From positions 1 to 64,000 of the forward strand of contig NZ_BCTJ01000018.1 in NCBI RefSeq assembly GCF_001571225.1: a DNA stretch of 64,000 bases, written 5' to 3'. Source of the DNA: Hydrogenophaga palleronii NBRC 102513. Its GTDB lineage: Bacteria > Pseudomonadota > Gammaproteobacteria > Burkholderiales > Burkholderiaceae_C. The notes under the pieces were generated by a model. It saw only the letters and a list, made by a program, of their open reading frames with translations. It was not told the origin of the DNA and did not search any database. Numbering within the stretch: position 1 is the stretch's first letter; every line of letters starts with the position of its first letter. The position numbers were made by a program, and so were the translations under genes. Below are positions 40,236 to 59,700 of this stretch, in pieces.

Positions 40236-40236
40236 A

Positions 40237-41139: not shown

Positions 41140-41146
41140 GCAACAG

Positions 41147-41361: not shown

Positions 41362-41400
41362 GTAATGGGAGCACGCGTGAAGTGACTCGAAGGTGTGACC

Positions 41401-41843: not shown

Positions 41844-42935
41844 TCATTGAAAGAATAGAGCCTCCACGTCATTGATCACTTGGGGCGTTGGAGCAATTGC
41901 TTTCCGCAAGGCCTCACGGCTCCCAGGGTTCATAACACTCACCGCTGCGTAGACACGCGCACGCCAATAGTTAAAGGGCGTTTGCCTTTGCGCTTGGCTT
42001 TTGGCAGTCCCGCTCTCTCGGAGCTTCACCAGAAAACATGCATCATCTTGTGCGCGTGCATCTTCGGCCACCTTTGCTCCCAACTCCCTGAATTCCCCCT
42101 CCACGCGAGACTTGATCTTGTAGACATCATCCCAAGTCGCCAGCTTCTCCTGTCGATCGGGATCGATGCTCTTGAAGTTAACGACCACGCGCGGGAACAG
42201 CTCGTGTGCGTCATCAATTACCACCTCAATCTCGTTCAATAACGCGCGTTCAGACCATGGCGAAAAACTGAGACGCCGGACCCCGTCCTTAAGCAGCAGG
42301 TCCTTGGCCAGCTTAGCTTTGGAATTGCATGTGGTGCAGATGGGGAGCAGATTTTTCGGGGCCACCCCGTATAGGGGGTAAAGGTCTTTGGCCAACAGGT
42401 GGTCATAAGGGCCCCGCCATTGCTCGTTGTCGTTCGCGTCTGCCTGAAACGGCGCAAGATATTCAGTCCCACAAACGCAACACAAATTGCCGTTACCTGG
42501 GGCGATGCCATGACGGAACCGAGCGTAGTGGTCGTCGACGCGTTCGCCACATGCTTGCTCTACGTCCTTGAGCCTCGCCGTGCGCTGAAAGAGGTGAATT
42601 GCAAGGATCTTCAATTGCGGAAGAACCGCATCAGGTAAGACTGGCAGCGATGCAGTCCGGTCGGACAGAAACGCAGACGGATCTGTGTTCAATGCCAAAG
42701 CGTCCTTGATTGCTTGCTTGTTCCCCTGATCGAGCGCCAACAATTGTGCTCTGAGGGAGTCAACTGCCGTCTGAGTCGGTTGATTTCCAGCTATCGCAGC
42801 ACACAAGCCAACTGGGAGCAGAGTCTCATCCACGGGCCTACCCTCAAGCGTGGCCAGCATCGTCTCTCGAAAGAAGCGGTTGAGCGCTTCAAACACTTCC
42901 GACTGCTGAAGATTGGGGTGGACCTCGAACAGCAT
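41844..42935 (-). CDS. HNH endonuclease, partner of the restriction-associated ATPase
   Basis: A 363-residue protein whose central part (about 145-210) is an HNH nuclease with a zinc knuckle: C152-x2-C155, then D178-H179 as the catalytic pair, N195 in 'KNLLPIC', and C200-x2-C203 followed by N204 and K206. The flanking N- and C-terminal regions are helical and unassigned. Its start overlaps the ATPase stop (TGATG), so the two are made together. The order ATPase then HNH nuclease is that of the PtuA-PtuB pair of the Septu anti-phage system. It is inferred to cut invader nucleic acid when released or activated by the ATPase. Confidence 0.85.
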   Translation of the reverse strand: MLFEVHPNLQQSEVFEALNRFFRETMLATLEGRPVDETLLPVGLCAAIAGNQPTQTAVDSLRAQLLALDQGNKQAIKDALALNTDPSAFLSDRTASLPVLPDAVLPQLKILAIHLFQRTARLKDVEQACGERVDDHYARFRHGIAPGNGNLCCVCGTEYLAPFQADANDNEQWRGPYDHLLAKDLYPLYGVAPKNLLPICTTCNSKAKLAKDLLLKDGVRRLSFSPWSERALLNEIEVVIDDAHELFPRVVVNFKSIDPDRQEKLATWDDVYKIKSRVEGEFRELGAKVAEDARAQDDACFLVKLRESGTAKSQAQRQTPFNYWRARVYAAVSVMNPGSREALRKAIAPTPQVINDVEALFFQ

Positions 42936-44611: not shown

Positions 44612-45939
44612 ATAGCGGTCTTCCTTCCGCGTTTTTTTGTACTGATCGATGGCGCTTCCTGCTGCAACCGGCGCAGCAGTTTGCTAGCCGGCTCGTCATT
44701 CGGGTCTTGCGGCACAAGTTGGCCACTGAAGGCCTTGGCCATAAAAGCTGGAGTGAGGCGCTCTGTAGCCATCTGCACGTCTTGCACACGGGCATCGATC
44801 CGGTCAGCGAAGGCGAAGAGGGTTTCGACACGGCGAACGATTTCGGCTTGCTCGTCCTTTGAGGGCAGCTTCAACGGGAGCGTTCGCAAATCCTCAATGT
44901 TGATGCCTGTGTAAGCAACACCCTTGGCCACGCCGGTCAGCCACCGCTGACATTCGTCACTGGCGATCCAAAATGAAATGTATGCTGGGTCAGCCAAAGC
45001 CTGGTCAATGGGCACAACTGCAACTTCACGAGACACATTCCAGCCCGTCATATCGTCTGTGGCTACCGCTACCCCACCCAGCGTGCCGCGAACGTTTACC
45101 AAGACTTCTCCACCACGCAGCACTGTGCGTTGGTACTCAGCGGAGAGTCTTGGATGAATCAGCTTCATTCCATCGAGTTCAAATCGAAGCCAGCGGACGT
45201 TGCTCGTACGCAAACAAGGCGTACCGCCGGGCGTGTCATCTCCCAGCTTGACGACACCGTATGTGATGACACGATCAGGCATACAGATTGTTTGGAGAGT
45301 TGTCTCTACCCCCGCATTTATGCCATGCGTGGCGCGCCAATCCGCCGTTAACTGCCCCGAGGTGGCGGCGGCGAGAACGGATTGGCGAAAGCGTTTGAGG
45401 ATGGGGGCCACGCGGGCCAGGCGGGTGTTGACGGTGTCAACGCGAGTGAGGACGGTGTCGAGTGTGTCGGCAATGCGCTTTTGTTCCAATCGTGGTGGCA
45501 AAGCAACCTCAGTGCCTTCAAAGACGCCCTTGGTGACGTGCTGCAACCCCGCACCGCCATGCGCTACACCGATCAGCTCAGTCAGCTTCTGATTGATCGC
45601 ATGGCGGAAGAAACGTCGATCCAAAAGCGCGTCATCAAAATCAACACGAAAAATGTGCTGGTTGAGAAGTGCTTTGCCACCAAGCCATACATGTGCTCCG
45701 AACGAGGTTCCGGGCGTCCCAGACCAAGCGAACAGGAGTTCCCCACCTTTCAAGTAGTGCCTGTTGTCGTATGCACCGTTGAATCGATTGAACGGTGCAG
45801 AGCCATTGTTCAAGTTCTGTATCCGAACAATGGGCAGACCATCTTGTGACCACTCCGCAGGCTTGAAAGCACGACCGTTTTTCAGATCGCAAAGGCTGCC
45901 GATGGGTGCTTGTACCCAGTTTGTGGGAAGCAAGCTCAT
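44608..45939 (-). CDS. hsdS: Type I restriction-modification specificity subunit
   Basis: A 443-residue HsdS with the usual two target-recognition domains (about 1-150 and 215-370). These are separated and followed by conserved coiled-coil spacers ('LPPRLEQKRIADTLDTVLTRVDTVNTRLARVAPILKRFRQSVLAAATSGQLT' and 'LPSKDEQAEIVRRVETLFAFADRIDARV'). The end 'FSGQLVPQDPNDEPASKLLRRLQ' is common to the EcoKI-like group. It fixes the bipartite DNA site read by the methylase and restriction complexes. TGATG overlap with hsdM upstream and ATGA with the ATPase downstream. It is full length, without visible truncation. Confidence 0.94.
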   Translation of the reverse strand: MSLLPTNWVQAPIGSLCDLKNGRAFKPAEWSQDGLPIVRIQNLNNGSAPFNRFNGAYDNRHYLKGGELLFAWSGTPGTSFGAHVWLGGKALLNQHIFRVDFDDALLDRRFFRHAINQKLTELIGVAHGGAGLQHVTKGVFEGTEVALPPRLEQKRIADTLDTVLTRVDTVNTRLARVAPILKRFRQSVLAAATSGQLTADWRATHGINAGVETTLQTICMPDRVITYGVVKLGDDTPGGTPCLRTSNVRWLRFELDGMKLIHPRLSAEYQRTVLRGGEVLVNVRGTLGGVAVATDDMTGWNVSREVAVVPIDQALADPAYISFWIASDECQRWLTGVAKGVAYTGINIEDLRTLPLKLPSKDEQAEIVRRVETLFAFADRIDARVQDVQMATERLTPAFMAKAFSGQLVPQDPNDEPASKLLRRLQQEAPSISTKKRGRKTAI

Positions 45940-47393
45940 CAGTTGCTTTCCCCCAGTTCAGCCAACATCGCCTTCAGCTCAGCCAACGCCCCGTTCAGCT
46001 CCTCCACAGCATCGCGCGCCAACACGGCCGGTTCGGGCAAGTCAGCTGCATCCTCCGCGCTGTCATCCTTGAGCCAAGCGATGTCCAGTCTGTCGCCTTT
46101 TTCGCTGGCGATCCAGTCGCGGCTGAAGCGGCGGAAGCGCCCTTGTTTGCCTTGGTCTTGTCGGGCGGCTTTGCCGCTGTGCTCGTCGCCGTACTCGGCG
46201 ATGAAGTCGGCGAAGTGCGCGTCGGTCAGCGGTGTGCGTTTGCCGAATTTGGGGGCGTTGGCGCGCATGTCGTACACCCACACGTCTTGCGTGCTGCCTG
46301 TGGCAGCCTGGCTGACTTTCTCGAAGAACAGCACATTTGTCTTGACGCCCTGGGCATAGAAGATGCCGGTGGGCAGACGCAGGATGGTGTGCAGCCTGCA
46401 CTTGTCCATCAGGTCACGGCGGATGTCGGCGCCTACGCCGCCCTCGAACAACACGTTGTCGGGCAGCACCACGGCGGCGCGGCCGCCGTCGCGCAGGTGT
46501 CGCACGATGTGCTGTAGGAAGGCGAGCTGCTTGTTGCTGGTGGCGAAGGTCAGGTCGTCGCGGGTGGGGCCGCCACCACCCTTTGCGGTGCCAAAGGGCG
46601 GATTGCTCAGGATGATGTGGCTCTTGGGCAGGCTGCTGCCGGCGCTGCCCAGGGTGTTGCCCACGTGCACGACACCTTCGGCATCACCTTCCATACCGTG
46701 CAGCAAGCAGTTCATCAACGCCAGGCGGCGGGTGCCAGACACCAGCTCCATGCCCAGGAAGGCCTGGTTGCGCTGGAACTTGCGCTCCTTTTCGCTGAGG
46801 TTATAGAGGTCGTCGGTCCGGTCCTTGATATAGCGGTCGGCGGCGATCAGAAAGCCAGCGGTGCCGGCGGCCGGGTCTTGCACGGTCTCACCGGGCTGGG
46901 GTTGGATGACCTGGACGATGGTGTCGATGAGCGGGCGGGGCGTGAAGTACTGGCCCGCGCCGCTTTTGGTTTCGCTAGCGTTCTTTTCCAGCAGGCCTTC
47001 GTACAGGTCGCCCAGGCCGTCTTGCCGAGCGCTGAACCAGTCGATACCGTCCAGGCTCTTGACTAGCTGTTCCAAGTGCCGCGGCTCTTTCAGACTGGTC
47101 TGTGCGTCGGCATAAATGGCGGCGATCAGCCGGTCCTCACTGGCGGAAAGCTTGAGCAGGGTTTCCCGGTAGTGTCGCAGTAGGTTCAAGCCACTTTCGT
47201 CACGAAGCTTAGGCCAGCGCGCATACGCTGGCAACTTGTGGCGTTCAAGGATGCCGTTTTCGGCGTTCTCATACTCCATCTTGATGAAGAGCAGCAGAAC
47301 AAGTTCGGTGACATAGTCGCTGTAGTTGATTCCGTCGTCACGCAGTACGTCGCAAAGGTTCCAGAGTTTCTGGACGATGTCTTGGGTAGTCAT
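45939..47393 (-). CDS. hsdM: Type I restriction-modification DNA methyltransferase subunit
   Basis: A 484-residue adenine N6-methyltransferase. The N-terminal helical HsdM domain ('VQKLWNLCDVLRDDGINYSDYVTELVLLLFIKM') is followed by the SAM-binding motif 'DPAAGTAGF' (residues 173-181) and catalytic 'NPPF' (264-267). It methylates host DNA at the site chosen by HsdS. It lies 41 bases after hsdR and overlaps hsdS by TGATG. All core motifs are intact, so the methylase is likely active. Confidence 0.95.
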   Translation of the reverse strand: MTTQDIVQKLWNLCDVLRDDGINYSDYVTELVLLLFIKMEYENAENGILERHKLPAYARWPKLRDESGLNLLRHYRETLLKLSASEDRLIAAIYADAQTSLKEPRHLEQLVKSLDGIDWFSARQDGLGDLYEGLLEKNASETKSGAGQYFTPRPLIDTIVQVIQPQPGETVQDPAAGTAGFLIAADRYIKDRTDDLYNLSEKERKFQRNQAFLGMELVSGTRRLALMNCLLHGMEGDAEGVVHVGNTLGSAGSSLPKSHIILSNPPFGTAKGGGGPTRDDLTFATSNKQLAFLQHIVRHLRDGGRAAVVLPDNVLFEGGVGADIRRDLMDKCRLHTILRLPTGIFYAQGVKTNVLFFEKVSQAATGSTQDVWVYDMRANAPKFGKRTPLTDAHFADFIAEYGDEHSGKAARQDQGKQGRFRRFSRDWIASEKGDRLDIAWLKDDSAEDAADLPEPAVLARDAVEELNGALAELKAMLAELGESN

Positions 47394-47434
47394 GAAAAGA
47401 TTACTTGGAGATATTGAGGCTCAGCGACGCATCG

Positions 47435-50400
47435 TCATGCCGCCCGGAGCCATAGGCCATCAGACAGCGCCCCCATCACGCCTTCAAGCTGCCCAGCAAG
47501 CAGCTTGTCGAGCTGTTTGGCGCCGCCGTCGTTGACGAAGGCGTTGTTGATGAAGGCATGGTCGATGACGAGTTCGTGCGTGAGTTGTTTGCCAAGACGG
47601 TCTAGCCACTTGCGTTGCACTGGAGTCCAAGGGTGTATGGCGTAGATCCTCTGCATGGCCTGAGCCACACGTTGGTCGAAAGGCTGCAAGGCTTCGCCCA
47701 ACGCGGCTTGGCGGATGTAGGCAATTACGCCCGCGGCTATGTCTTGGTTGCTGTGGTTTCGCCAGGCGGCCTTGAGGCTGGCTTCGGAATATCCCGCACC
47801 ATCGAGGAGCAGCCGCACTTCCTTGAGTTGTTCACGGGTGAGGTCCTTGGGTCGATTGACCACTGTTGCCATGGCTGCGGACAGATTGACCTGCTCGCGC
47901 ACGAAGTGGCCGAAGCTGTCGAGGTAGTCCTCGGGTTTGGCATAAAGGCCCCAGCTCTGACTGCGTTCTTTCAGTTCATCAACATGTGTAGAGATGATAG
48001 GCATATAGGCTGTGCCCAGGATCTGCTTGACCTCGGCGAGCTGAAGAAGCAAGCGCGTGTTATGGCGCAGGAAGTCGGCCGCAGCCTGCGGTCCGCCCTC
48101 CTGCCCTAGCTGGTGCAAGTGTCGGTGCAATTGCTGCGGGGGAACGCCCCATTGCTGTTCTAGCTGATCGAGCTTCTCTTTGAGTTCGGGCTTTTTATCG
48201 GCCTTGTGCGCTGCATCGCGCAATACACGCATGAGCTTCTGATTGAGTTGGTCAAGCACATCGTGCGCATGGGTGCGGTCTGGCGTGGCACCGACGGTCT
48301 CATATGCTGCCGGGTTGTTCAGTTCGTCCAGAAGTTGTTCCAAAGTGACTTTGGGGTCCTTGACCAGAGGCTGCATGGTGTTGACCGCTTGCAACGAGGC
48401 ATACAAGTCTACCGGGTCGTAAATTTTGAAGACCGTCTTACCGATCTCGTCGCAACGACGGGTAGCACGGCCAATCATCTGCTCGTACAGGATGCGGGAG
48501 CGCACTCGGCGCATGAAAACAAGATGACAGATAGGCGGAACGTCGATGCCAGTGGTGAGCAAGTCCACCGTGATGGCGATAGTGGGAAAGCGTTCGTTCT
48601 TGTAGCGGCGTATGAGCTGGTCTACCTTGTCAGACGCTCCGGTAATCTTCGCCACCGAGGCTTGGTTGTATTGGTCGCCGTGAACAGCCTTCAAGGCTTC
48701 GTCGAGTAGACGTTTGACCATGTCGGCATGCGCATCTGTGGCGCAAAAGATCATGGCCTTCTCTTCGCCCATGGGGTCCAACTCTTGAGCGAGCTGTTCG
48801 CAGACCACACGGTTGAACGGTTCATTGATGACACGCTTGTTAAAGCTCTCCAGCTCGAAATGCAGGTCGTCTTCCAGCTCGGCAGTTTCGATTTCGCCTG
48901 TACCAAGATTGATGGCCTCGACCTGCTGGCCGCTGTCGAAGTGAATACCGTGCTGGCTCAATAGTGTCTGGTAGCGGACAGGGGGTTCGTGATCAATCAG
49001 CCAATCGTCGGCCACGGCTTCGCGGTAGGAATAGGTGTAGACCGGGAGACCAAAGATGTCGGTGGTATGGCGTGCTGGAGTGGCAGTCAAACCCACTTTG
49101 ATGGCGTCGAAGTAGTCGAGGACTCGCCGGTAAGTGGAAAGGTACTGAGCTTGATCACGTAGGGTGAGTTCTCCCTCGGTCATGTCCTGGTCTAGTGCGT
49201 AGCCGCGATGGGCTTCGTCCACGATGATGCAGTCGAAGGCATCTAGCGGGGGCGGGTTGTCGCTACCAAAGATGCGCTTAACCATGGCCTGAACGGTAGC
49301 CACCTGCACACGAGTTTCGGCTTCGGCCGCCATGTCGCCCAGCTCAGCGATGTTGTAGATATTGGAAAGAGGCTGACTTTGCTCCAACGGCGCTTCGTTG
49401 AAGGCATCAATGGCTTGGTTCCCCAGGGCTGTGCGGTCCACCAAAAACAATATGCGACGGAACCGCTCAGCCTTGAGGAGACGGTAAATGAGGCCGATGA
49501 TGGTGCGTGTTTTCCCCGTACCGGTGGCCATGGCCAACAAGCAGTTCGCCTGACCGGCGGCAAGTGCAACCTCGACTGCGCTGATGGCCTTCTCTTGGTA
49601 GTCACGCAGCCCCAGGTACGAGAATCCTTCTCGCTGCAGTTTGGCTTCAGCTTCGGCCTTGTTCCGGCGGAGCTGGTCGAGCAGACCTTCGGGAGAGTGA
49701 AAGCCTTGCAGCGGTTTGGCCAGGTTGCCCTTGTGGCGTACATCGCGGAACCAGGTCCCACTGGCCTCCGGGCTCTGCTTCACCAACGGGCGACCGTTGC
49801 ACGAGTATGCGAATGGCAGGTTGAACGAACTGTCTTGCCCGTCAGGCCAGGGGCCTTGACGCCCCTCTAAGAGCCACGCTGCCTCGTGCTCTGGTTGGAT
49901 GTTAAATCCACGGGCGTAGCGCTCAGCTTGGCCCAGCTTTCCTGCCACATTAACGTTTATGCGCTTGGCCTCGATCGCCGCAATGGGCGAGAGACCCGCG
50001 AAGAGCAAATAATCAGCGCTCTGCTTGCCGGCGATGGGCCATTCGGCAATTGCCAAGTTGCGGTTGCGCTCAGGACGGATGCCCTTCGAATGAGTGAGTT
50101 CGAGTGTGTCTACTTCCCAGCCAACCTCCCTGAGCATCTGATCAATGATAAGGCGGGTGGACGCTTCGTCAATTGCGACCTTCTGAGCAGCCTGGGTCGC
50201 GCGCTGCGCAAAGGTTTGAATGTCCTGCGAGCTGGCAGTGGTGGGCTGAGCATTGACAGTCTGCAGGTGGGCGTCGAACTCGGCCTTGAGGGCTGCGTAG
50301 CGAGTGCTAGCCTCTTCCGCCAGGCTTTCGTACACGCCACGTTCTTCAGTTGCCCGTTCGGCCAGCAGTTTCTCTTGCGCTGCCTGGGCAGCTAACAACT

Positions 50401-50938
50401 CGGCCATCCGAGCCTTGTCTGCCTGCTCGGCTTGGGCTTGCTGGAGGTGCTGTGTCAGGTCGGTTACTTGCTGCTGCAGCGTCAATAACCTGTGGCTTGG
50501 ATCGTCCGGCAGGATGAATGCACCGGGCTTGAAATTTGCGTCGCGGCCGAAAGTGCGGTGGAACCACAACGCTACTTCCCGTGCGACCTTCAGCGTCTCC
50601 AGCCCTTCGCGGTAGCCGAAGCCGTGGTTGGCCCGATGGGCCGCCTCGTTCCCCCGCTGGCGCAACAGGTGGAACATCTGACGCACCTGCGAATCCAGTC
50701 CGAGGCGTTGATCTACGGCTCGCAGCAATTCAGCCTGCGTGGGCTGTTGGAGGCGCACACCGATGCGCGCTGCCACATCCTGAGTTATCGACTCCGCCAG
50801 CAAGCGAAGCTTGAGCACGCAACTGGCTGGATCGAACGGATAGACACGTTCGGCTGTCGATCCGAGATCAGCCAGCAACGGACTGTGCGCAGCCAAGAAG
50901 CTGAAATTGCTGGCTCCGGGTGTGTTGTCTCGATCCAT
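47435..50938 (-). CDS. hsdR: Type I restriction endonuclease subunit R (EcoKI-like)
   Basis: A 1167-residue restriction/translocation subunit, the size of EcoKI HsdR. An N-terminal DUF4145-like region (about 1-135) leads to a long coiled coil (about 150-225), then the PD-(D/E)xK nuclease with D309 and E323-A-K325 ('SADYLLF...AAIEAKR'). The SF2 motor has Walker A 'ATGTGKTRT' (471-479), DEAH at 574-577 and 'GLTATPARH', with the C-terminal helicase and coupling domains intact. The ATG at 50938 has AGGAT upstream; an extension upstream lacks support. It is preceded after 16 bases by a ribbon-helix-helix gene. Confidence 0.94.
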   Translation of the reverse strand: MDRDNTPGASNFSFLAAHSPLLADLGSTAERVYPFDPASCVLKLRLLAESITQDVAARIGVRLQQPTQAELLRAVDQRLGLDSQVRQMFHLLRQRGNEAAHRANHGFGYREGLETLKVAREVALWFHRTFGRDANFKPGAFILPDDPSHRLLTLQQQVTDLTQHLQQAQAEQADKARMAELLAAQAAQEKLLAERATEERGVYESLAEEASTRYAALKAEFDAHLQTVNAQPTTASSQDIQTFAQRATQAAQKVAIDEASTRLIIDQMLREVGWEVDTLELTHSKGIRPERNRNLAIAEWPIAGKQSADYLLFAGLSPIAAIEAKRINVNVAGKLGQAERYARGFNIQPEHEAAWLLEGRQGPWPDGQDSSFNLPFAYSCNGRPLVKQSPEASGTWFRDVRHKGNLAKPLQGFHSPEGLLDQLRRNKAEAEAKLQREGFSYLGLRDYQEKAISAVEVALAAGQANCLLAMATGTGKTRTIIGLIYRLLKAERFRRILFLVDRTALGNQAIDAFNEAPLEQSQPLSNIYNIAELGDMAAEAETRVQVATVQAMVKRIFGSDNPPPLDAFDCIIVDEAHRGYALDQDMTEGELTLRDQAQYLSTYRRVLDYFDAIKVGLTATPARHTTDIFGLPVYTYSYREAVADDWLIDHEPPVRYQTLLSQHGIHFDSGQQVEAINLGTGEIETAELEDDLHFELESFNKRVINEPFNRVVCEQLAQELDPMGEEKAMIFCATDAHADMVKRLLDEALKAVHGDQYNQASVAKITGASDKVDQLIRRYKNERFPTIAITVDLLTTGIDVPPICHLVFMRRVRSRILYEQMIGRATRRCDEIGKTVFKIYDPVDLYASLQAVNTMQPLVKDPKVTLEQLLDELNNPAAYETVGATPDRTHAHDVLDQLNQKLMRVLRDAAHKADKKPELKEKLDQLEQQWGVPPQQLHRHLHQLGQEGGPQAAADFLRHNTRLLLQLAEVKQILGTAYMPIISTHVDELKERSQSWGLYAKPEDYLDSFGHFVREQVNLSAAMATVVNRPKDLTREQLKEVRLLLDGAGYSEASLKAAWRNHSNQDIAAGVIAYIRQAALGEALQPFDQRVAQAMQRIYAIHPWTPVQRKWLDRLGKQLTHELVIDHAFINNAFVNDGGAKQLDKLLAGQLEGVMGALSDGLWLRAA

Positions 50939-50954
50939 TGCTATCCTGATGTTG

Positions 50955-51164
50955 TCAGTCAGCTCCACAGTTCGTCTGCCCAGACCTTCCCTCGGACGAA
51001 GCACCTCGCACAGCTTCCAAGCCATGCTCTTGCGCGTACGTCAAGACCAGCACCTCGACCATGGACGCTACGGACCGGTGCTCTCTTTCCGCCGCGAGCT
51101 TCAGCAACTGCTTGACGTTTCCTGAAGTGCGGATAGACAAGGTCTCATCCTTTAGCTGCTTCAT
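50955..51164 (-). CDS. Ribbon-helix-helix DNA-binding protein
   Basis: A 69-residue protein whose first 50 residues match an Arc/CopG-type fold: strand 'DETLSIRTSG', then helix 'NVKQLLKLAAEREHRSVASMVEVLVLTYAQEHGLE'. It starts at an ATG with GGAT ten bases upstream. It sits 16 bases before hsdR, so it is probably the operon's own repressor, or an antitoxin without its toxin. A longer reading frame from 51266 is less likely. Confidence 0.75.
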   Translation of the reverse strand: MKQLKDETLSIRTSGNVKQLLKLAAEREHRSVASMVEVLVLTYAQEHGLEAVRGASSEGRSGQTNCGAD

Positions 51165-51685
51165 GGTGGTGTATCCAAATGTCTTGGCGTGCAAATGTAC
51201 TGCGTTTTGCAGACATCCTGCAAAGCATGGTGTGCTTCTTTCCGTGTTCATGACATCTTCAGGCACCTCCAGGTTGCTCGTTGCACAATTGAATGCATGA
51301 ATGCGAGCGAATCGTCTTCTTGGCCGCTATTGGTCGAATCAGTCCTTCACCGCTAGACGCCTCCTGGACAGCTCACAGTCTCATGGCGACTTCGAGGATC
51401 GAAGTGCTGCATTGCAGCGTGAGGAGCCCTTCGAACCCTCGCCACCAACGGCAGCGTAGTGGCGCATCGCTGCTAGCAAGGCGCAGCCGCGTTCAAGGGT
51501 CAATACGCAGCTCCAGCCGGTCGTATCGTTCCGTCATCAATCTAAGGCGTGGCCAACTAAGTGACGGGGCTTCCACGTGCACAAGAACCGCCCGTACCGC
51601 GCCTCTTGCAGGTCCGGTGGATGCGCAATACGTCAAGCGCATCCTCGCGAGATCAGAAGGGCGCTTTCGGGAGCGACCCCGCCCG
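51165..51685. other. 521-base stretch without a supported gene
   Basis: Between the ribbon-helix-helix gene and the end of the helicase gene I see no convincing coding region. A 52-codon frame on the plus strand (51301-51459) and a longer plus-strand frame from 51293 that runs into the helicase gene lack ribosome binding sites and recognisable content. The part next to 51164 should contain the promoter of the hsd operon, and the rest may be the remains of a lost gene. Confidence 0.5.
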
Positions 51686-54600
51686 TCAGCGGTTGAGGGC
51701 CACTCTGACGCGCTGAGCAACCATAGCTATGTGCGCCATGTCGAGCCCCGGCCCCTCCGTCGAGGTGAACAAGTTCTGGCCCTCGATGTAATCGTTGGCG
51801 GCGTACCAAGCCTTCTTTTTTTCCCAGCCCCGCCTGTAGTCGTCCCGATCAAGCATCCCGAGGTGTTCCCAGAGGATCAGCTCCCCCGCATCTGTCTCCC
51901 AACTGAAGTCGGGGCGCAGCCGGTAGGGATAGCCTTCGCCTTCCAGCCGGCGGTTGTACGCGTAGTCGCCGAGATTGACATCCGGGCTGGCGAAGTACGT
52001 GGCCAGCGTGAGCTCAGACTTGCTCTGCACCATGACGTTCTTGCTGGTGCGATGCACGAGGTGCTGCGCATAAGGGAAGTCGTCGCTGCAGCGCACGCCG
52101 ACGGAAAAGAGGTTGGTGTTGCGCCGCGCCGTCTCAGAGTTCGTCGGCTGTGAAAGATCAAACAATGAAGCGGCATTCTTGCCCTGGATCAGCAACACGA
52201 GCCGCTTTTTCGAGCGCGTAAGCGCCGTGTAGACCAATTCGCGCGACAGAAACCGCGCCTTTTCGGGCAGTACCACGAACACCTTGTCGAATTCGCTGCC
52301 CTGCGCCTTGTGAACGGTGAGTGCGTAGGCAAGTTCGAGAGGCCCTGAATTGCTGGAAAACTGGCCCGGGCTGAATCCGAAGCGCACGTCAGCACGCTGG
52401 GCAAAGGCAACGTTCAGATACCTGCCCTTGTTGGGCGCGGGGGCTGTGACGCCGATTTCGCCATTGGCCAGGTACATATCATCGACTCTCGCCTTGAGCC
52501 TCCCGTTCCAGCCATCGCGCTTGCCGTTGCGCGTCAGGATGACCTTGTCGCCCCAGACGATCTCTTCGTCGCCAAGGCTCAGCCCCCACGGCTGGCGCGC
52601 GGAGTTGAGCTGCTGACGCCGGAAGGTGCCCTGGACCCAGCGGTTTATCTGGTGGATTCCATGGGACTGCAGGCGAACGGGAGAGAGCATCTGAAAGCGC
52701 TCGGCGCCATCGTGATCATCGAACGGTACGAAGCCTTCAGTGGTCAGTCCGAGCGCAGCGTTGAACCCAGTCACATCGTCCGGCGTCTTCAGCCCGAGCT
52801 CTGAAACGAACTGCTCGCCAATGAGCCGGTACAGGTCCGCAGGTGTCTGCCACGTGCACACCCGTAGGTCGTTTAGGTTCTCGCCTTCGCCCTCTTCACT
52901 GAGCACCCATTCCGCGTCGGCCGGCTGCTGCTCCCGCGTGAACCAGGAGGCAAGCTTCAGCGTGTCCGACGCCTTCCCCTGATCGGCGGTGCGCAGTTCG
53001 ATGCCGAGCCTTGCCAGCGCGCTGGCCTGCGGCGAGCCATTGTCCGCGGCGTCCATGTAGGCGACCAGATCAGCGAAGGGACGGCCGACGCCGATCGGCG
53101 GCAGTTGGTTCGGATCGCCCACGAGAATGACGCGCTGGACATGAACCAGATCGAGTGCCAGCAGCGTCGCCAGCAGGTCGTCCATGGTGAGCATCGAGCA
53201 CTCGTCGATAACGACGGTCTTCTCCTGCCTGTACTTCTCCTCGCCGTCGAAGTGCACCCGCTGTCGCAGACCGTCATAGCGTTTGAGCTGATACAGGAAC
53301 TGCGCGACCGTCATTGCGTTCGCGTTCGCTTTCTGTGACAGCCGGACGCGCGCTTTACCGGTCGGGGCAAGAAACAGGATGCCGCCGGTGGCAAGCTTCG
53401 CTGATTTCAGCAAGCCCGCCAGCACGGTCGTCTTCCCGGTTCCGGCGCGGCCCACTAGGACGGCCAGCTTGGCTGTCGTGATCTGCTCCAGCGCCTTAGC
53501 CTGCTCCTCCAACGCAGATACATGGCGCGGGTTGCCGAGATCAGGATTGGTGCCGTTCTCCTTCAGCGCCTCGACTATCAGCTTCTGCCAGGCCTCGCCT
53601 GTGCTCGGCAGCCTTGCCGTTGCTCGGCCACTGAGCAGTTTGCCAAGCCGAATCTCCCGGTCCTGAAGCTCTTTGAGCTGCAGGCATTGCACGGCTTCAT
53701 CGGTTTCGTGGTTCAGCAACAGCCGCAGCCGGGACACCTCATCGGCCAGCAGCGCTTCGTTGCCGTTGAGCCAGTCCACGGGCACTTCACAGGGCTGCGC
53801 GAGATTGAGCTTGCCCAGGGCCAGTAGCGCTTCAAGATCGGACAACAGCGCGTCGCCCTGCACGGCCGCGGCGCGCAGAACGGCAACCAGCCCCGCACGC
53901 ACGCGCCTGCCATCAAGCGGCGAATCCACGCGCGAAGGCTCTTCGACGGGATGAGCTGCGCGAATTGCGCTGTCCGGCATGACTCCGCGATCGACGGTGG
54001 CCAGTGAGATGGCGTTGTCCTTGTCATCGCCGATGTCGCATTCGGCGATGCGATAGGGGTTCCCGATGATCGCTGCGTCCGATACAGGCTGCCGCGACGC
54101 ATTCTTGCGCCGGTTCGGGTCAAGCCACCGCTTCGCCTGCGACGCGCTCAGGCTCATCCGGGACAGTAGCCGGACCAGGGCCCGCCGTTCTTCCGAAAGA
54201 CCGGTCCAGGTGTTAGCAACGGCTGCTATGTCGGCTTTGTAGGCGCTCTGCGGTGGCGCCGCTTTGCCGCGCAGGATGAGGTCGATGACTGGCCAGGGAT
54301 CGTCCGTCGACTTTACAGATCCTTTGGCAATCAGCTCCAGCACCAGTGACGTGCCCAGCCGCATGCCGAGGGCCTCCAGGACAGGGCCGGCTCCAGGAAA
54401 GGCGCCGCGATCCTGCCAGGTGTTCTCGATCTGCGCGTTGAGCCATTCTTCGCGGTTGTCCCAGGGGCCAGGCGCTATCCCGTGCTCCTTGATCTTCCGA
54501 ACTGCAGAGAGGCATTTGGTCAGAACCGACAGCGCAACATCGGCAGTTGACAGCTCACCTGCGTAGGAGAACGACATCACATCGACGGCTTCGGGCACGA

Positions 54601-55381
54601 CTGCAATCTCATCGAGCAGCGACCGGCGGCGTGCATCCTCGGCAGCGTCGCCGGTTGGCTGCAGATAGTCGTGGTAAGGCAAGATGAAGCCCGCCTTCCC
54701 TTCCGGCCTGATCGAGTGCTGGAACTTGCCGTCCCACAGCGGATAGGTGTCGCCCGAGATCGAAGTGTCGTACTCAATCACGGGAGCGCGAGACTCGACA
54801 AGACCGACACCGACCACGAGGCGGGAATAGGCTTCTTCCAATGGGTGGCCGCTCTTTGTGTAGAAGAACACCAGCGAACGACCCGCGGTCAGTCTGCCGA
54901 AAAAGAGGTTGCAGATGGCGCGCTGGCGGGTTTTGGAGAAGACCCAGGGTGAAGGGAAAGGTGGCTCCTCGTCAGGGGGAAGCTCCTCGGGAAGCTGTGA
55001 TTGCAATTCGTCCTGATTTCCGCGCAACATCCAGTAGAAGGGCACTGCAAACGTCGAGTACGGCTGGACAGGAATGTTTGTCTTCAGCAGGTGGCCGTGC
55101 GTTTCCTGCGTCTTCTTGTTGCTGGCATATGGATGCTCAACGGTCCTGATCCACTGGTGTTGATTCATGAAGGCGGTTGACTCGTCCTTGCATGGCGGCA
55201 GGTCAGCAGGCGGGATGTCGGCGAACAACCTGCCTTTGAATTGGACCTCCTTCAGGTCAATCCGGCTGGAGCGGATGCGTTCGAGGTCGAGGCAGTATGA
55301 ATTCAGCAGCGGATCGTTGCAAACCGTTCCGTTCCAGCGGTTGTCATGCCACGCAACTCGAACATTCAAATGAAAAGTCAT
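51686..55381 (-). CDS. RecD-like helicase with C-terminal PD-(D/E)xK nuclease domain
   Basis: A 1231-residue fusion. The N-terminal ~600 residues have no assigned fold but start with a tryptophan/cysteine-rich motif 'WHDNRWNGTVCNDP' (residues 11-24). An SF1B RecD2-like helicase follows, with Walker A 'GRAGTGKTT' (644-652), Walker B 'DECSM' (726-730), 'GDPNQLPP' (755-762) and late motifs 'TVHKAQGSEFD' and 'VYTALTRSKKRL'. The last ~110 residues look like a nuclease, with D1158 in 'RPDF' and E1172 in 'LWEHLG', followed by 'WEKKKAWY'. It overlaps the upstream winged-helix gene (TGATG). Probably a defence or DNA-processing enzyme; the specific system is not identified. Confidence 0.85.
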   Translation of the reverse strand: MTFHLNVRVAWHDNRWNGTVCNDPLLNSYCLDLERIRSSRIDLKEVQFKGRLFADIPPADLPPCKDESTAFMNQHQWIRTVEHPYASNKKTQETHGHLLKTNIPVQPYSTFAVPFYWMLRGNQDELQSQLPEELPPDEEPPFPSPWVFSKTRQRAICNLFFGRLTAGRSLVFFYTKSGHPLEEAYSRLVVGVGLVESRAPVIEYDTSISGDTYPLWDGKFQHSIRPEGKAGFILPYHDYLQPTGDAAEDARRRSLLDEIAVVPEAVDVMSFSYAGELSTADVALSVLTKCLSAVRKIKEHGIAPGPWDNREEWLNAQIENTWQDRGAFPGAGPVLEALGMRLGTSLVLELIAKGSVKSTDDPWPVIDLILRGKAAPPQSAYKADIAAVANTWTGLSEERRALVRLLSRMSLSASQAKRWLDPNRRKNASRQPVSDAAIIGNPYRIAECDIGDDKDNAISLATVDRGVMPDSAIRAAHPVEEPSRVDSPLDGRRVRAGLVAVLRAAAVQGDALLSDLEALLALGKLNLAQPCEVPVDWLNGNEALLADEVSRLRLLLNHETDEAVQCLQLKELQDREIRLGKLLSGRATARLPSTGEAWQKLIVEALKENGTNPDLGNPRHVSALEEQAKALEQITTAKLAVLVGRAGTGKTTVLAGLLKSAKLATGGILFLAPTGKARVRLSQKANANAMTVAQFLYQLKRYDGLRQRVHFDGEEKYRQEKTVVIDECSMLTMDDLLATLLALDLVHVQRVILVGDPNQLPPIGVGRPFADLVAYMDAADNGSPQASALARLGIELRTADQGKASDTLKLASWFTREQQPADAEWVLSEEGEGENLNDLRVCTWQTPADLYRLIGEQFVSELGLKTPDDVTGFNAALGLTTEGFVPFDDHDGAERFQMLSPVRLQSHGIHQINRWVQGTFRRQQLNSARQPWGLSLGDEEIVWGDKVILTRNGKRDGWNGRLKARVDDMYLANGEIGVTAPAPNKGRYLNVAFAQRADVRFGFSPGQFSSNSGPLELAYALTVHKAQGSEFDKVFVVLPEKARFLSRELVYTALTRSKKRLVLLIQGKNAASLFDLSQPTNSETARRNTNLFSVGVRCSDDFPYAQHLVHRTSKNVMVQSKSELTLATYFASPDVNLGDYAYNRRLEGEGYPYRLRPDFSWETDAGELILWEHLGMLDRDDYRRGWEKKKAWYAANDYIEGQNLFTSTEGPGLDMAHIAMVAQRVRVALNR

Positions 55382-55773
55382 CAGCAGTCTTCCATTGCAT
55401 TGAACTGGCGCGAGCCTGAGTCGTCGAGGCTGCTCCGTTGAATGTAGCGTAGTGCGACCCGAGCAATCAGAATCAAGCTGGGGGAAGCCCAGGGCATGCG
55501 CCCCTTGCGGGTGACATGTATGAAACCGGCATCGATGAGTTCCTTCTTCGCCCGATACAAGGTCGTGCGCGACCGCCAGCCTCGTTCGCTGACCTGCGAC
55601 CACGCGACGGTCAGATCGCCATTGTTGTCGCCACGATATTGACCGATCAAGTCAAAGAGCAGCTTGCAAGCAAATGAGCTCAACGCGTAGAACGCGGGGC
55701 ATTCAAAAACACTGTAAACGATGCCCACGAAGTTCTCGTCGAACTTGCTGCCCTTGTGCCTTTTCTTAGCCAT
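55381..55773 (-). CDS. Winged-helix protein of integrative elements
   Basis: A 130-residue protein beginning 'MAKKRHKGSKFDENFVGIVYSV', with 'CPAFYALSSFACKLLFDLIGQYRGDNNGDLTVAWSQVSERGWRSRTTLYRAKKELIDAGFIHVTRKG', a typical winged helix as in replication-initiator or plasmid-type regulators. The ATG at 55773 follows GGGGAG. It is translationally coupled (TGATG) to the helicase-nuclease gene and likely controls it or loads it onto DNA. Proteins of this kind are seen in many integrated elements of proteobacteria with no proven function. Confidence 0.75.
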   Translation of the reverse strand: MAKKRHKGSKFDENFVGIVYSVFECPAFYALSSFACKLLFDLIGQYRGDNNGDLTVAWSQVSERGWRSRTTLYRAKKELIDAGFIHVTRKGRMPWASPSLILIARVALRYIQRSSLDDSGSRQFNAMEDC

Positions 55774-56096
55774 GGCCGCTCTCCCCAAGTTGAGAAAGGC
55801 GAAGCAGCAATATTGAACACCTACCAGGCCCGTGGTAGCCAACGCCGCCAGATTCTGCAGGCCCGGACGATGGTCCGCCTCCGCCATCAAGCTGCCAAAC
55901 GATTGCATGCATGCAAGTCTTCGATGTAGACATGTGCATGGGTACGTTGATCGCTTTGCAATGCAGAGCGCCGCGACGATGTGAACGGCGGGCACCGATC
56001 GAGGGCACCCTGGAACGAGCGGACACCAGAGTTGGGGCGATGGCGATGCGGTCTACCACCATACGGCAGGCATCCAGATTGGTCGTCGCCAACATC
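55774..56096. other. 323-base stretch without a supported gene
   Basis: A 109-codon minus-strand frame (55766-56095) opens two bases after the AlpA-type gene stop and closes just inside the winged-helix gene. Its product has no recognisable motif, its composition is not convincingly protein-like, and no ribosome binding site is seen. It could be a small operon gene, but I do not call it. The stretch should contain the promoter for the winged-helix and helicase genes. Confidence 0.4.
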
Positions 56097-56345
56097 TCAG
56101 AAGTCCACGGAGAGTTCGACGCGTTTGGCGTGCAGGCGGATCACGAGCGCGCGAATTTCGCACTCTGTTTTGCCAGCAATGCGTGCAATATTGATCGCAC
56201 GCACCTCGTCAGCGGGCCAGCCGACAGAACGCTGGCCGATGGCCACGGGCTTCGTGAAGGTGCCCGCCTTGATGGCGTTGTAGATCGATGCGTGCGAGCG
56301 GTAGCCGGTCTCAGCCTTGACCTGTGGCAGTCGGATAATCTGCAT
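56097..56345 (-). CDS. AlpA-family transcriptional regulator (excisionase-like)
   Basis: An 82-residue MerR-type helix-turn-helix protein of the AlpA family: 'MQIIRLPQVKAETGYRSHASIYNAIKAGTFTKPVAIGQRSVGWPADEVRAI' contains the recognition helix and the 'GWP..EV..W'-like wing. The C-terminal helix is longer than in P4 AlpA. ATG at 56345 follows GGAAG. It lies 138 bases after the integrase gene and its terminator. AlpA proteins activate integrase or work as recombination directionality factors, so this is a good candidate for the island's excision factor. Confidence 0.88.
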   Translation of the reverse strand: MQIIRLPQVKAETGYRSHASIYNAIKAGTFTKPVAIGQRSVGWPADEVRAINIARIAGKTECEIRALVIRLHAKRVELSVDF

Positions 56346-56426
56346 TTCGTCTTCCAAAGAAAGCTAGGGAGCACTGATTTAGTAACCTGCCACGTAGAGC
56401 TCCGGACATTTGTTCAAGTCAAAAAC

Positions 56427-56452
56427 AAAAAAAAGCGACCCACCGGGGTCGC
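56427..56452 (-). terminator. Rho-independent terminator after the integrase gene
   Basis: A perfect seven-base-pair stem (GCGACCC at 56435-56441, GGGTCGC at 56446-56452) with a four-base loop and, on the minus strand, a run of eight T. It ends the integrase transcript and insulates it from the AlpA-type gene. Confidence 0.92.
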
Positions 56453-56483
56453 TCGTGTGCGAAAAGACAACAGCGCGGGCGGA

Positions 56484-57770
56484 TCAAGCCGCTTGCAACT
56501 GGTGGACCTTCGCGCCCGCCATCAGCGCGTCTAGATAGTCGGCCCACTTTTGCATCATCGCCGCGCGCTGCCTAAGGTAGGTCGTGCGGTTATAGGCGCG
56601 GCCGTTGGCGTCCTTCACCGAGTGGGCCAGTTGGGCCTCGATCACCAGGGGATCGCATTCCAGGCGCTCGGTGAGCATGGTCCTGGCGGTCGCGCGGAAG
56701 CCATGCCAAGTTTGGATGTCTGACGTGTAGCCCATGGAAATCAGAGCCGTGCGCACCGAGTTCTCGGACATCGGACGCTCATGATTACGCTCGCCGGGGA
56801 ACACCATGGCGCCGTGGCCGGTGTAGCCCTTGAGGCCTTGAAGAATCTCGACAGCCTGGCGCGACAGGGGCACCAAGTGCGGGTCGCCATTCTCCTTGCC
56901 GTCCTTGGTGCGCTTCATGCGCGCGGCCGGAATGGTCCACAACGCAGCGTCTAGGTCAATTTCGATCCACCGCGCCGCCCTGAGCTCACCAGGACGCAGC
57001 AACAGCAAAGGGGCAAGCTGCAGCGCGGCACGCACAACAGGGCCACCTCGGTAGGCGCGCGTAGCGCGCAGCAGCTTGCCAAACTCCACCGGGTCCACGA
57101 TGGCCGCAAAGTGTTTGCCCCGGTAAGGCACTAGCGCGCCCTTCAGGTCAGTCGTGATGTCGCGCGTGGCGCGGCCAGTCGCGACGGCATACCGCCAAAT
57201 CTGCCGGCACAACATGAGGCCACGGTCGGCCGTCTCGATCGCGCCGCGCTCTTCGGTCTTGCGGATGGTCGCCAGCAGCTCGACGGGCTCGATGTCCTTG
57301 ATACGGCGCTCGCCGATCCAAGGGAACAGGTCGCGCTCAAGCTGGCGCTTCGACCTGCTGGCGTGCGCATCGCTCCATTGAGGCGCCTGCTTCTCGTACC
57401 ACTCCAAGGCCGCGGCCTTGAAGCTGTCACCGGTGGGGTTCAACGCCTTTAGCTTTTCGAGCTTCCTCGCCAGCGTGGGGTCGGTGCCGTCGGCGCGCTG
57501 CAAGCGGGCCGCATCGCGCGCACGCCGCGCGGCCACCAGGCTCACGGCCGGATAGCTGCCCAGCGCCAGGCGCGAGTCGCTACTGCCCTTGCGGAATTTC
57601 CAGAACCACCGCTTGGAGCCGTTGGGGCTGACCTCCAGATACAGCCCGCCCGAGTCGGTTAGGCGCTCACGCTTCTTGTCGGCCGGGCAGGTGGCGTTTT
57701 TGCAGTGGGCATCGGTCAGCAAGTGGGCTCCTATCGAGCTTGTTCCCCACATTATTGCCTGAACGGCCAT
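56484..57770 (-). CDS. Tyrosine integrase, P4/DUF4102 type
   Basis: A 428-residue tyrosine recombinase with an N-terminal DUF4102 arm-binding domain ('KRERLTDSGGLYLEVSPNGSKRWFWKFR', 'LALGSYPAVSLVAARRARDAARL'), a SAM-like core-binding domain and the catalytic domain. The catalytic residues are visible: Arg in 'LLLRPGELRAARW', 'HGFRATARTML' (HxxR), 'LAHSVKD' and Tyr in 'RTTYLRQR'. It faces away from the tmRNA gene, next to which it integrates. ATG at 57770 follows GGGGAAC, which belongs to a TTGTTCCCCAC repeat; ATG at 57752 with AGG upstream is an alternative. This suggests self-regulation by binding its own start region. Confidence 0.92.
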   Translation of the reverse strand: MAVQAIMWGTSSIGAHLLTDAHCKNATCPADKKRERLTDSGGLYLEVSPNGSKRWFWKFRKGSSDSRLALGSYPAVSLVAARRARDAARLQRADGTDPTLARKLEKLKALNPTGDSFKAAALEWYEKQAPQWSDAHASRSKRQLERDLFPWIGERRIKDIEPVELLATIRKTEERGAIETADRGLMLCRQIWRYAVATGRATRDITTDLKGALVPYRGKHFAAIVDPVEFGKLLRATRAYRGGPVVRAALQLAPLLLLRPGELRAARWIEIDLDAALWTIPAARMKRTKDGKENGDPHLVPLSRQAVEILQGLKGYTGHGAMVFPGERNHERPMSENSVRTALISMGYTSDIQTWHGFRATARTMLTERLECDPLVIEAQLAHSVKDANGRAYNRTTYLRQRAAMMQKWADYLDALMAGAKVHQLQAA

Positions 57771-57793
57771 TTGTTCCCCACGACGTTCCCCAC
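57740..57793 (+). repeat. Right cluster of TTGTTCCCCAC repeats (likely integrase arm sites)
   Basis: TTGTTCCCCAC occurs at 57740-57750 and 57771-57781, and GTTCCCCAC closes a third copy at 57783-57793. The last two are spaced 12 bases, exactly as in the pair at 41223-41245, and both pairs end in CACAA. They overlap the start of the integrase gene, so binding there could both support recombination and control the gene. Confidence 0.72.
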
Positions 57794-57856
57794 AAGGGGT
57801 AAAGACGCCCTTGGAAGCCCCTATACCTTCCTGCAAATTAGATTGTTGATTTTTAA

Positions 57857-57891
57857 AGAAAAAATGCCGCCAACGGTATGTCGTTAGCGGC
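57857..57891 (-). terminator. Terminator beyond the tmRNA gene, supplied by the island
   Basis: Arms GCCGCCAACG (57866-57875) and CGTTAGCGGC (57882-57891) pair fully with one G-T wobble around a six-base loop. On the minus strand a run of T-rich sequence follows. It lies 16 bases after the tmRNA 3' end, on the island side of the junction, so it replaces the terminator displaced by integration. Confidence 0.85.
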
Positions 57892-57905
57892 CTTTATCAG
57901 GTCGT

Positions 57906-57920
57906 ATGGTGGAGCTGGGG
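57906..57920 (-). other. Right attachment site within the tmRNA 3' end
   Basis: The end of the tmRNA gene (the CCA and the acceptor-stem bases, here ATGGTGGAGCTGGGG on the plus strand) is the integrase-side copy of the repeat found in worn form at 41147-41160. The tmRNA gene remains intact on this side, as usual for integrases using tRNA-like ends. Confidence 0.55.
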
Positions 57921-58283
57921 GGATTCGAACCCCCGTCCGCAAGCCTTTTTCGAGCAGTTCTACATGTGTAGCCGTCTGATTTGGGTCTCGCCGCCCGAGT
58001 CGCGCAGTGGCACGCTAAACGGGAAGCCAGCATCCTTGAATCTCATCCTGCGCCAAGGTGCCCGACGCAGAACCAGCCGATGTAAATTACCTTGCAGCCG
58101 GGAGGTCTTGCGACCCCCTTGCCCAGCCCATCGGCCTGCTGTTGCAAGGCTCACCGGTGTTTAAGCGGCGAGTGCGAAACGTTCGTCGTTTGCAGTTGGT
58201 TTTTTTCTGCTGATTTACGAGGTGACAGAACCTCGACATGCCCTGCTGCGCGTCCGAACCCACGTCGAAACCAGTGCAGCCCC
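57907..58283 (-). ncRNA. ssrA: Transfer-messenger RNA (tmRNA)
   Basis: A 377-base one-piece tmRNA. The 5' end GGGGCTGCACTGGTTTCGACG at 58283 pairs with the 3' end ...CCCCCAGCTCCACCA at 57907, forming the alanine-tRNA-like domain with a T-loop 'GTTCGAATC'. The tag-coding frame on the minus strand from 58193 to 58161 reads ANDERFALAA then TAA, the tag of betaproteobacteria. It rescues stalled ribosomes with SmpB. Its 3' end is the integration site of the genomic island. Confidence 0.97.
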
Positions 58284-58295
58284 AGGAGATGGAGT

Positions 58296-58973
58296 TTAAG
58301 GCAGTTCCAGCAATTTCAAGACTTGCAGGGGCGAAGAAACCTCTGCGTCGGCGCCCCAGCTCGCCACATCGGCGTCCGGACCGAGATAACCGTACCGAGC
58401 AGCCACTGTTGGCATGCCCGCCGCATGCCCTGCCCGGATGTCGCGCTCGTCGTCACCCACGTAGATGCATTGACCCGGCGCCAGCGCCAGCTGGCGCGCC
58501 GCTTCCAGCAACGGCGCGGGATGCGGCTTGGTGTGGGCAGTGGTATCGCCGCAGATGACAGTAGAAGCCGTCGCGAAGAGCGACATCGAATGCGTGATGG
58601 GCTTGGTGAAGCGCTGTGACTTGTTGGTCACCACGCCCCACATCAGGCCCGCATCCAGGAGGTGCTCGACCAAGGCCGCGACCTCATGAAAGAGCTGCGT
58701 GCGCTGCGTGAGGCAGGCCTCGTAAGCCATGAAGAACTCCTCCTTCATGGCAACGAAGTCCTCATGCTCGGGCGAAATGTCAAAAGCCGCCTTCAACATG
58801 CCACGGGCGCCCGCGCCTGTGTGTGCGCGGTAGTGGGCCTGCGGCAATGAGGGCAGGCCACGGTGCAATCGCATGCTGTCGACCGCAGTACCCAGATCCG
58901 GCGCACTGTCGATCAGGGTACCGTCCAGGTCAAACAGCACGGCACGAACGCCCCTGAAAACAGGCCGGGTCAC
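58296..58973 (-). CDS. gph: Phosphoglycolate phosphatase, HAD family
   Basis: A 225-residue HAD hydrolase. The nucleophile motif I is '[12 protein letters not shown]', motif II 'VVTNKS', and motif III/IV '[14 protein letters not shown]' and '[17 protein letters not shown]'. It removes the 2-phosphoglycolate formed in DNA repair (and carbon metabolism). The start is a GTG at 58973 in a GTGA overlap with the ubiG stop. The ubiG-gph pairing is usual in Burkholderiales. It ends 12 bases before the tmRNA 5' end. Confidence 0.92.
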
Positions 58974-59677
58974 GGCTTGCGCGTCGCGAACAGGTAGTTC
59001 ACGCTGGTGTCGTCGCTCAGCCAGTAGCGCTGCGTGATCGGGTTGTACTCCATGCCGCGCGTCTGCTCCAGCTCCAGCCGCTCTGCCCGGCAGTAAGCGG
59101 CCAGCTCGCTCGGCCGGATGAATTTTTTGTACTCGTGCGTGCCCTTGGGCAACAGCTGCAGCACGTACTCCGCCCCCAGAACCGCGAACAGAAATGCCTT
59201 GGCGTTGCGATTGAGAGTGGAGAAGAACACCCAACCACCCGGCTTCACCAAGGTGGCACAGGCACGCACCACCGAAGCCGGGTCGGGCACATGCTCCAGC
59301 ATCTCCATGCAGGTGACGATATCGAAAGCCTCTGGCCGCTCCAGTGCCATGGCTTCCGCACTGATTTCCTGGTAACTGACGTTCTGGGTGCCGGCTTCGA
59401 GCGCATGCAGCTGTGCCACCCGCAAGGCCTTGGAAGACAAATCGATGCCGGTCACTCGTGCCCCCTTGCGTGCCATCGAATCGGACAGGATGCCACCACC
59501 GCAACCGATATCGAGCACCTCTTTTCCGGCCAGCACGGCCAACCCGTCGATCCAATCCAATCGCAAAGGATTGATTTGGTGCAAGGGGCGGAATTCGCTG
59601 TCGGGATCCCACCAACGGTGGGCCAGGTCGGAGAATTTGGCCAGCTCGGCCGGATCTGCATTGACGTTGGGATTCAT
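58970..59677 (-). CDS. ubiG: Ubiquinone biosynthesis O-methyltransferase UbiG
   Basis: A 235-residue SAM-dependent methyltransferase carrying out both O-methylations in ubiquinone synthesis. '[36 protein letters not shown]' is the UbiG N-terminal signature and '[28 protein letters not shown]' the SAM-binding site, with '[10 protein letters not shown]' and 'FFSTLNRN' following. ATG at 59677; overlaps gph by GTGA. It is separated from the OmpA-family gene by a terminator. Confidence 0.96.
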
Positions 59678-59700
59678 GGCTCGATTATCGTCAGCCCAAT

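Follow-up and report, generated by a model that had tools for sequence, protein, structure and literature searches.

Which genes lie between an integrase module and a type I restriction operon on contig NZ_BCTJ01000018.1 of Hydrogenophaga palleronii NBRC 102513, and do they form a new defence system? At this place in the window, by which we mean the whole stretch of 64,000 nucleotides analysed, the first-pass annotation had described a winged-helix (WH) protein coupled to a RecD-like helicase with a nuclease-like end, in an arrangement that it did not recognise as a named system. The two open reading frames (ORFs) and their TGATG overlap, in which one base is common to the end of the WH ORF and the start of the recD-like ORF, are as it described them:

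51686-55381, minus strand: recD-like gene, PDC-S68 family, 1231-aa ORF
55381-55773, minus strand: WH gene, 130-aa ORF

The larger protein is an already catalogued single-gene phage-defence candidate, PDC-S68. It matches the model PDLC05065 (PDC-S68) of PADLOC-DB v2.0.0 at full length with 1360.1 bits (residues 2-1225, model positions 5-1218 of 1221), and we found no difference between this family and the protein. PDC is given as 'phage defence candidate' in a passage of PMC11514479, and the label carries no mechanism. Among the best 25 of 28 PADLOC families, the three PDC-S68 models alone cover the whole protein; the others (RecD_0_IVD, RecD_like, PDC-M16A and the rest) match the motor and were rejected. 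The statement that this is no named system is not supported, since the large gene has an entry in PADLOC-DB, although PDC-S68 is a candidate label and not a tested system. Placement in an already described system, which the annotation had named as the outcome that would count against novelty, was found for the large gene alone and not for the pair.

We propose, with about an even chance of being right, that the recD-like gene, carried by an island, encodes a stand-alone anti-phage helicase-nuclease able to inspect base modification. An EVE/YTH-like front domain would inspect DNA bases for modification, a RecD2-type superfamily 1B (SF1B) motor would move along the strand using ATP, and a C-terminal Vsr-like nuclease would cut DNA; such a protein would act as a type IV-like restriction machine, dependent on modification, in which a RecD2 motor takes the place of McrB. 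The family, the motor, the invariant nuclease and N-terminal residues and the defence neighbourhoods are read from sequence, and the EVE/YTH-like and Vsr-like folds from structure models. The genomic context makes a defence activity likely; modification sensing, like the order of these events, is what we infer by analogy with EVE/YTH fusions to McrB motors and nucleases. Passages of PMC7641849 describe EVE and YTH domains as readers of modified bases and report their fusions to McrB motors and nucleases in defence. The EVE/YTH-McrB and EVE-nuclease type IV systems of those passages likewise combine a predicted modified-base reader with either a DNA motor or a PD-(D/E)xK nuclease, whereas the PDC-S68 motor is a RecD2-type SF1B helicase and not the McrB GTPase, and all its parts lie in one polypeptide. 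The term 'RecD' is absent from the text of PMC7641849. Searches of open-access full text found no paper with the term PDC-S68 and none with both 'EVE domain' and 'RecD'. The parts of the protein are the following:

54482-55381, minus strand: residues 1-300, predicted EVE/YTH-like (PUA-superfamily) domain with an insertion
53603-54199, minus strand: residues 395-593, RecD2-like HHH/winged-helix region (VIA-align to RecD2 3gp8, Z 11.1, 157 aligned)
52172-53518, minus strand: residues 622-1070, SF1B RecD2-type helicase motor, motifs intact
51689-52048, minus strand: residues 1112-1231, predicted Vsr-like PD-(D/E)xK nuclease (SKSE, PDF, WEH)

Sequence profiles detect the motor alone in the 1231-residue protein (AAA_30 1.1e-30; UvrD_C_2 3e-15), and its key motifs bear out the RecD2-type call of the annotation. 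In an alignment of 18 sequences, which takes in the window's protein and goes down to 25% identity, the motif residues G644, A646-G647, G649-K650-T651, D726-E727 and Q759-LPPIG764 are invariant, as are H1024-K1025, Q1027-G1028-S1029, Y1051-T1052 and R1056. The protein is not a member of the RecD2 equivalog TIGR01448, for which it scores 200.8 bits, far under the curated 500-bit cut-off. Its likeness to RecD2 (TIGR01448, PDB 3gp8) extends over the motor and the HHH/winged-helix region, where PF14490 (HHH_RecD2) has a weak match in 5 of 22 members, and it differs from RecD2 by the EVE/YTH-like front and the nuclease tail. The N terminus of about 600 residues had been left unassigned; residues 395-593 match RecD2 in structure, and residues 1-300 resemble EVE/YTH in predicted structure with Z up to 7.4.

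Two AlphaFold2 models were built from alignments of 22 and 23 sequences, the latter being that of the nuclease. The C-terminal model has a mean predicted local distance difference test (pLDDT) score of 78.6; within model residues 41-166, the scores for blocks of ten residues are 71-95. VIA-align places it closest to I-Bth0305I, which we take to be Vsr-like (Z 10.0, 95 of 97 aligned, root-mean-square deviation (rmsd) 2.7), followed by ngo0050 (8.6), Bax1 (8.2) and TnsA (7.4), with unrelated folds from about 4.7 down. The residues D1158 and E1172 and the motif 'WEHLG' are where the annotation had put them, and E1123, D1158, E1172 and H1173 are identical in 18/18 sequences and invariant across the 23 of the nuclease alignment. 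This combination of predicted fold and conserved acidic residues argues for a Vsr-like PD-(D/E)xK domain, in line with the earlier nuclease call. Foldseek with the C-terminal model gave no match at E <= 0.001, the best Pfam match of the C terminus was TPD (0.0058, seen in 3/23 sequences), and PDB profile searches with the N- and C-terminal alignments gave nothing meaningful.

The N-terminal model (mean pLDDT 89.7) suggests that residues 1-300 resemble an EVE/YTH-like domain, the fold of modified-base readers. Among the 50 VIA-align matches shown for it, 26 begin at residues 1-2, and all 26 are of YTH or EVE type, with Z 5.0-7.4 (the tool advises 8) and 117-131 residues aligned; the best YTH match has Z 7.4, 120 of 134 residues aligned and rmsd 3.2. 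Over residues 1-300, PH1033 and MJECL36 reach 6.4-6.7 and Rpa0253 5.1, all three of which are presumably EVE-type proteins. The order of secondary-structure elements in the model, read by eye, fits an EVE core made of the strand at residues 3-8 and residues 146-300. When the family N terminus was compared by hhalign with EVE proteins gathered with the Pfam model, its FFYxK..GVGxV was set on the EVE motif FYHS..GIAEV with a score of 20.8, a value reached by none of 100 column shuffles (mean 11.6, maximum 18.3) and by none of 26 other windows of the PDC-S68 family (<= 15.3).

The W/C-rich start noticed in the annotation is real and conserved. An insertion at about residues 20-145 interrupts the EVE-like core and with its borders carries H12, C21, C30 and C64, which are present in 17/18 sequences and all missing in one (L016). 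The four residues are kept together or lost together, as expected of a metal site, and we regard them as a putative one. The L016 copy (9962-13615, on a Vibrio plasmid) retains the nuclease residues and possibly has a variant reader. Invariant in the 18 sequences are also W11, N27, Y174 and W216. These four bear on another reading, in which the protein is a sensor of intermediates of replication or repair, a role that has been proposed for DruE of Druantia III, and attacks phage DNA containing single strands whatever its modification. PMC13192584 reports a helicase-nuclease effector acting in this way, but this reading leaves the conserved N-terminal domain with its invariant residues unexplained, and we consider it quite improbable.

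To what extent does the company of the gene support defence? The recD-like gene is rare (1/369 class genomes), and copies 90-92% identical occur in other taxa, two of them on incomplete contigs; both features are as for a mobile defence gene. The PDC-S68 family occurs in proteobacteria, actinobacteria and bacteroidetes, and in acidobacteria and clostridia in metagenome-assembled genomes (MAGs); the family search also matched in M. jannaschii. A megablast of the recD-like DNA found no copy in E. coli genomes, and the phage search gave two short unannotated records at E <= 1e-30. On viral contigs, a first scan gave none and a later alignment query gave copies; four of these (L063, L065, L067 and L070) lie beside apparent phage structural genes, as judged by eye from first residues, and the family may ride on prophages too. 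That query kept 80 of 380 relatives, in 77 loci, of which we used the 13 reaching well beyond the motor; the remaining 64 match the motor, some together with the region before it. Among other copies, one that is 90% identical over residues 1-647 (L007) is on a 3.2 kb contig labelled as a Planctomycetota MAG, a label that may be a binning error; a Sphingomonas plasmid copy (L015, 9926-13721) looks broken into three consecutive ORFs; and a Rhizobium plasmid copy (L018, 7710-13657) is interrupted by another ORF.

We compared 34 other recD-like loci (L001-L011, L014-L023 and L059-L071), judged by hand over up to 10 kb on each side. The PADLOC scan, with E limits of 1e-10, 1e-20 and 1e-5, took in a hand-picked set of 50 neighbouring proteins, most of them large and one scanned twice. 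A neighbour was called clear when it had >300 bits over at least half of a profile, or covered a profile entirely (120 bits in L001), or carried an annotation as restriction-modification (RM). As a control, ten chromosomal proteins of the window were put through PADLOC. Two matched at E <= 1e-10, both by way of generic domains: an ABC transporter matched mad3/mad8 and an NtrC-type regulator matched RtcR, covering parts of most of these profiles; partial ATPase matches were therefore not counted. A clear defence neighbour was found in 16/34 loci: pPIWI-RE (L001, L003); type IIG (L002); DISARM (L005, and L010 by homology to L005); type III RM with HKD-Snf2 (L008); Avs2 (L009); pAgo with SIR2 (L019); ISP RM (L021, by annotation); a type III methylase (L022); type I RM (L023 by annotation, L061, L064); MADS mad7 with mad8 (L059); DrmD with Tiamat TmtA (L060); and SoFic, plus a QatC match of 186 bits (L068). 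In L059 (2506-7965), an 1819-aa protein directly upstream of the recD-like copy and downstream of mad7 matches MADS mad8 in its C-terminal part and is an apparent fusion. The annotation had named occurrence mostly in conjugation modules as a finding that would count against its reading; this is not what we found.

This diversity of neighbours bears on a reading in which the protein is an accessory, degrading phage DNA in the manner of RecBCD once a neighbouring system, restriction or nuclease, has made the cut, its N-terminal domain serving only to separate self from non-self. The RecD2 motor would suit such end-processing, as would the recurrent place near systems that cut or modify DNA, many on the same strand. 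However, the neighbours are very diverse with no single partner conserved, and they include SoFic and Avs2, which are not known to cut DNA first; we regard this explanation as unlikely. A more specific form of the modification-sensing proposal, which we put forward tentatively and hold to be doubtful, is that PDC-S68 is a distinct immunity class, in which a reader of the EVE/YTH kind, bearing a metal-binding insertion and fused to a RecD2 motor and a Vsr-like nuclease, would read adenine (or other) methylation and use the marks of neighbouring systems to tell host from phage DNA. The recurrence beside type I, type III, IIG, ISP, DISARM and MADS systems would then arise because methylation is read.

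Several observations weigh against our proposal of an anti-phage protein that inspects base modification. Many copies adjoin adenine methylases, and a simple rule of cutting methylated DNA would therefore endanger the host. The YTH/EVE Z scores of 5.0-7.4 all lie under the advised value, and the weaker of them (5.0-5.8) tie with unrelated matches. The hhalign match spans only 33 columns, with a probability of 4.3% and P 0.009, and a first, narrower EVE alignment gave P 0.03-0.1. Pfam EVE (PF01878) and YTH had no match at E <= 1 in 22 members, and Foldseek with the N-terminal model returned nothing at E <= 0.001, its 50 matches shown naming no YTH or EVE protein. As to context, the scanned neighbours were hand-chosen and mostly large ORFs, and 18/34 loci are without a clear defence neighbour. 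Six of these are ambiguous (L004, L006 and L062 with matches to DndH, DruE, LmuB and MkoA; L069 with REase_I, 140 bits over 57% of the profile; L014 with an annotated NACHT protein; L071 with PDC-S14), and in 12 none was seen or no judgement was made (L007, L011, L015-L018, L020, L063, L065-L067, L070). Among the 12, the loci L007 and L020 are short, annotation alone was used for L016 and L017, and L063, L065, L067 and L070 were outside the PADLOC scan; L011, L015, L018 and L066 gave no match with one or two neighbours scanned each. L015 carries a helicase in a DrmD-like BLAST cluster. Foldseek of the N-terminal part against viral structures also gave no match at E <= 0.001.

Is the WH gene a partner of the helicase-nuclease? 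A two-gene system in which the WH protein regulates or partners the large one is suggested by the TGATG overlap; overlapping start and stop codons can be the trace of a recombination event rather than an operon link, and what is known of relatives makes the partnership extremely improbable. WH relatives (E <= 1e-8) occur in 40/399 genomes sampled from the taxonomic family, and the recD-like gene (E <= 1e-40) in 1/399, the window's own. The WH gene is beside none of the 34 other recD-like copies, upstream DNA being too short to tell in six (L020, L062, L065, L067, L069, L070), and the overlap is not conserved among relatives. Similarity to the WH protein in tblastn ends at residue 94 in 29/29 loci of other genomes; these are a subset of the 40 other WH places listed, whose alignments end at residues 90-99. 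Eleven translated relatives, of about 136-237 aa, have a further conserved tail that is missing from the window's WH protein, whose codons 95-130 continue into the leader of the recD-like gene. The DNA from codon 94 onward resembles the leaders of two other recD-like copies: that of L007, with a global score of 44 against at most 8 in 200 shuffles, and that of L001 (17.5, shuffle maximum 9). It has no similarity to the leaders of L002 and L003.

Four WH relatives were read at length: in three, int, alpA and WH come in the same order, one of these with its integrase beside a transfer-messenger RNA (tmRNA) gene, and in the fourth WH stands alone. Judged by these comparisons, the WH gene belongs to an int-alpA-WH integration module and has been truncated. 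Because WH similarity stops at codon 94, leader-like DNA follows and none of the 28 other loci with enough upstream DNA pairs the two genes, the overlap is most simply a recombination scar. The claim of a coupled pair is not sustained, and a role of the WH protein as partner, antitoxin or regulator was rejected on the truncation and the lack of co-occurrence in the loci compared.

The remaining features of the surroundings are as follows:

41034-57906, no strand: island of about 16.9 kb at the ssrA 3' end, left border uncertain by some hundred bases
44608-51025, minus strand: type I RM operon hsdR-hsdM-hsdS, downstream of the recD-like gene on the same strand (REase_I 845 bits, MTase_I 733 bits, Specificity_I 288 bits)
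56097-56357, minus strand: AlpA-type regulator of the island (PF05930, 3.7e-11)
56484-57836, minus strand: tyrosine integrase of the island (PF22022, PF13356, PF00589)
57907-58283: tmRNA (ssrA)

The integrase and AlpA on one side and the type I genes on the other confirm the flanks given in the annotation, and the cargo position and strong defence context that it proposed are supported. The flanks 39463-41033 and 57907-59700 nearly adjoin in two congeners, 715 bases apart in G945 and about 755 in G941, which indicates that some 16.9 kb have been inserted beside the 3' end of ssrA in the window. Seven congeners carry the two flanks on a single contig. The distance between the flanks is about 0.7-0.8 kb in the two just named, 1.3 kb in G940 and 4.9-7.4 kb in G107, G937, G939 and G943; other DNA may occupy the larger gaps. 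In G941 the flank match extends some 60 bases beyond the tmRNA end, and a direct repeat of the ssrA end, sought at the far border of the island, was not found.

The minus strand is common to the integrase, AlpA, a ribbon-helix-helix (RHH) protein, the type I operon and an AAA + HNH-like pair, and ssrA adjoins. The small RHH protein (50955-51266) lies between the recD-like gene and hsdR (RHH_5 0.0015, TacA1 0.016, both under cut-off), and no toxin gene was noticed next to it. At the end of the type I operon (41844-44611), an AAA ATPase (restriction-system-associated TIGR04435, 167 bits, cut-off 300; PtuA 145 bits) overlaps a 363-aa protein with weak PDC-M01B/PtuB similarity, forming a Septu-like pair with scores under curated cut-offs.

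An island setting could also mean that the protein is a helicase for the island's own replication or transfer, given the adjacent int-alpA-WH and a weak match to the TraA-type relaxase helicase model TIGR02768 (88.4 bits against a cut-off of 590.45). Three relatives with the same int-alpA-WH order are nevertheless without the recD-like gene, a Pfam scan found no relaxase domain, and many homologues are in defence clusters; this role is very unlikely. A conjugation helicase was rejected on the lack of a relaxase domain together with the gene context.

The large gene is a known candidate, and what we newly propose for it is the EVE/YTH-like, RecD2 and Vsr-like architecture. RecBCD and AddAB have the same helicase-nuclease logic and a RecD-type motor; PDC-S68 differs from them in being a single protein with a nuclease of a different group and no Chi-recognition subunit. 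The ARMADA YprA helicases, according to passages of PMC12458937, are likewise defence helicases ending in a Vsr-type PD-(D/E)xK domain; a YprA-family helicase in a multi-gene system is the feature of ARMADA that differs, and 'RecD' is absent from the text of that paper. Our proposal gives a catalogued but unexplained defence candidate a testable mechanism, in which a RecD-type motor carries a reader of base modifications. Should this be right, it would explain the company that the recD-like gene keeps with methylation-based systems, and modification-dependent restriction would extend beyond McrBC-type machines.

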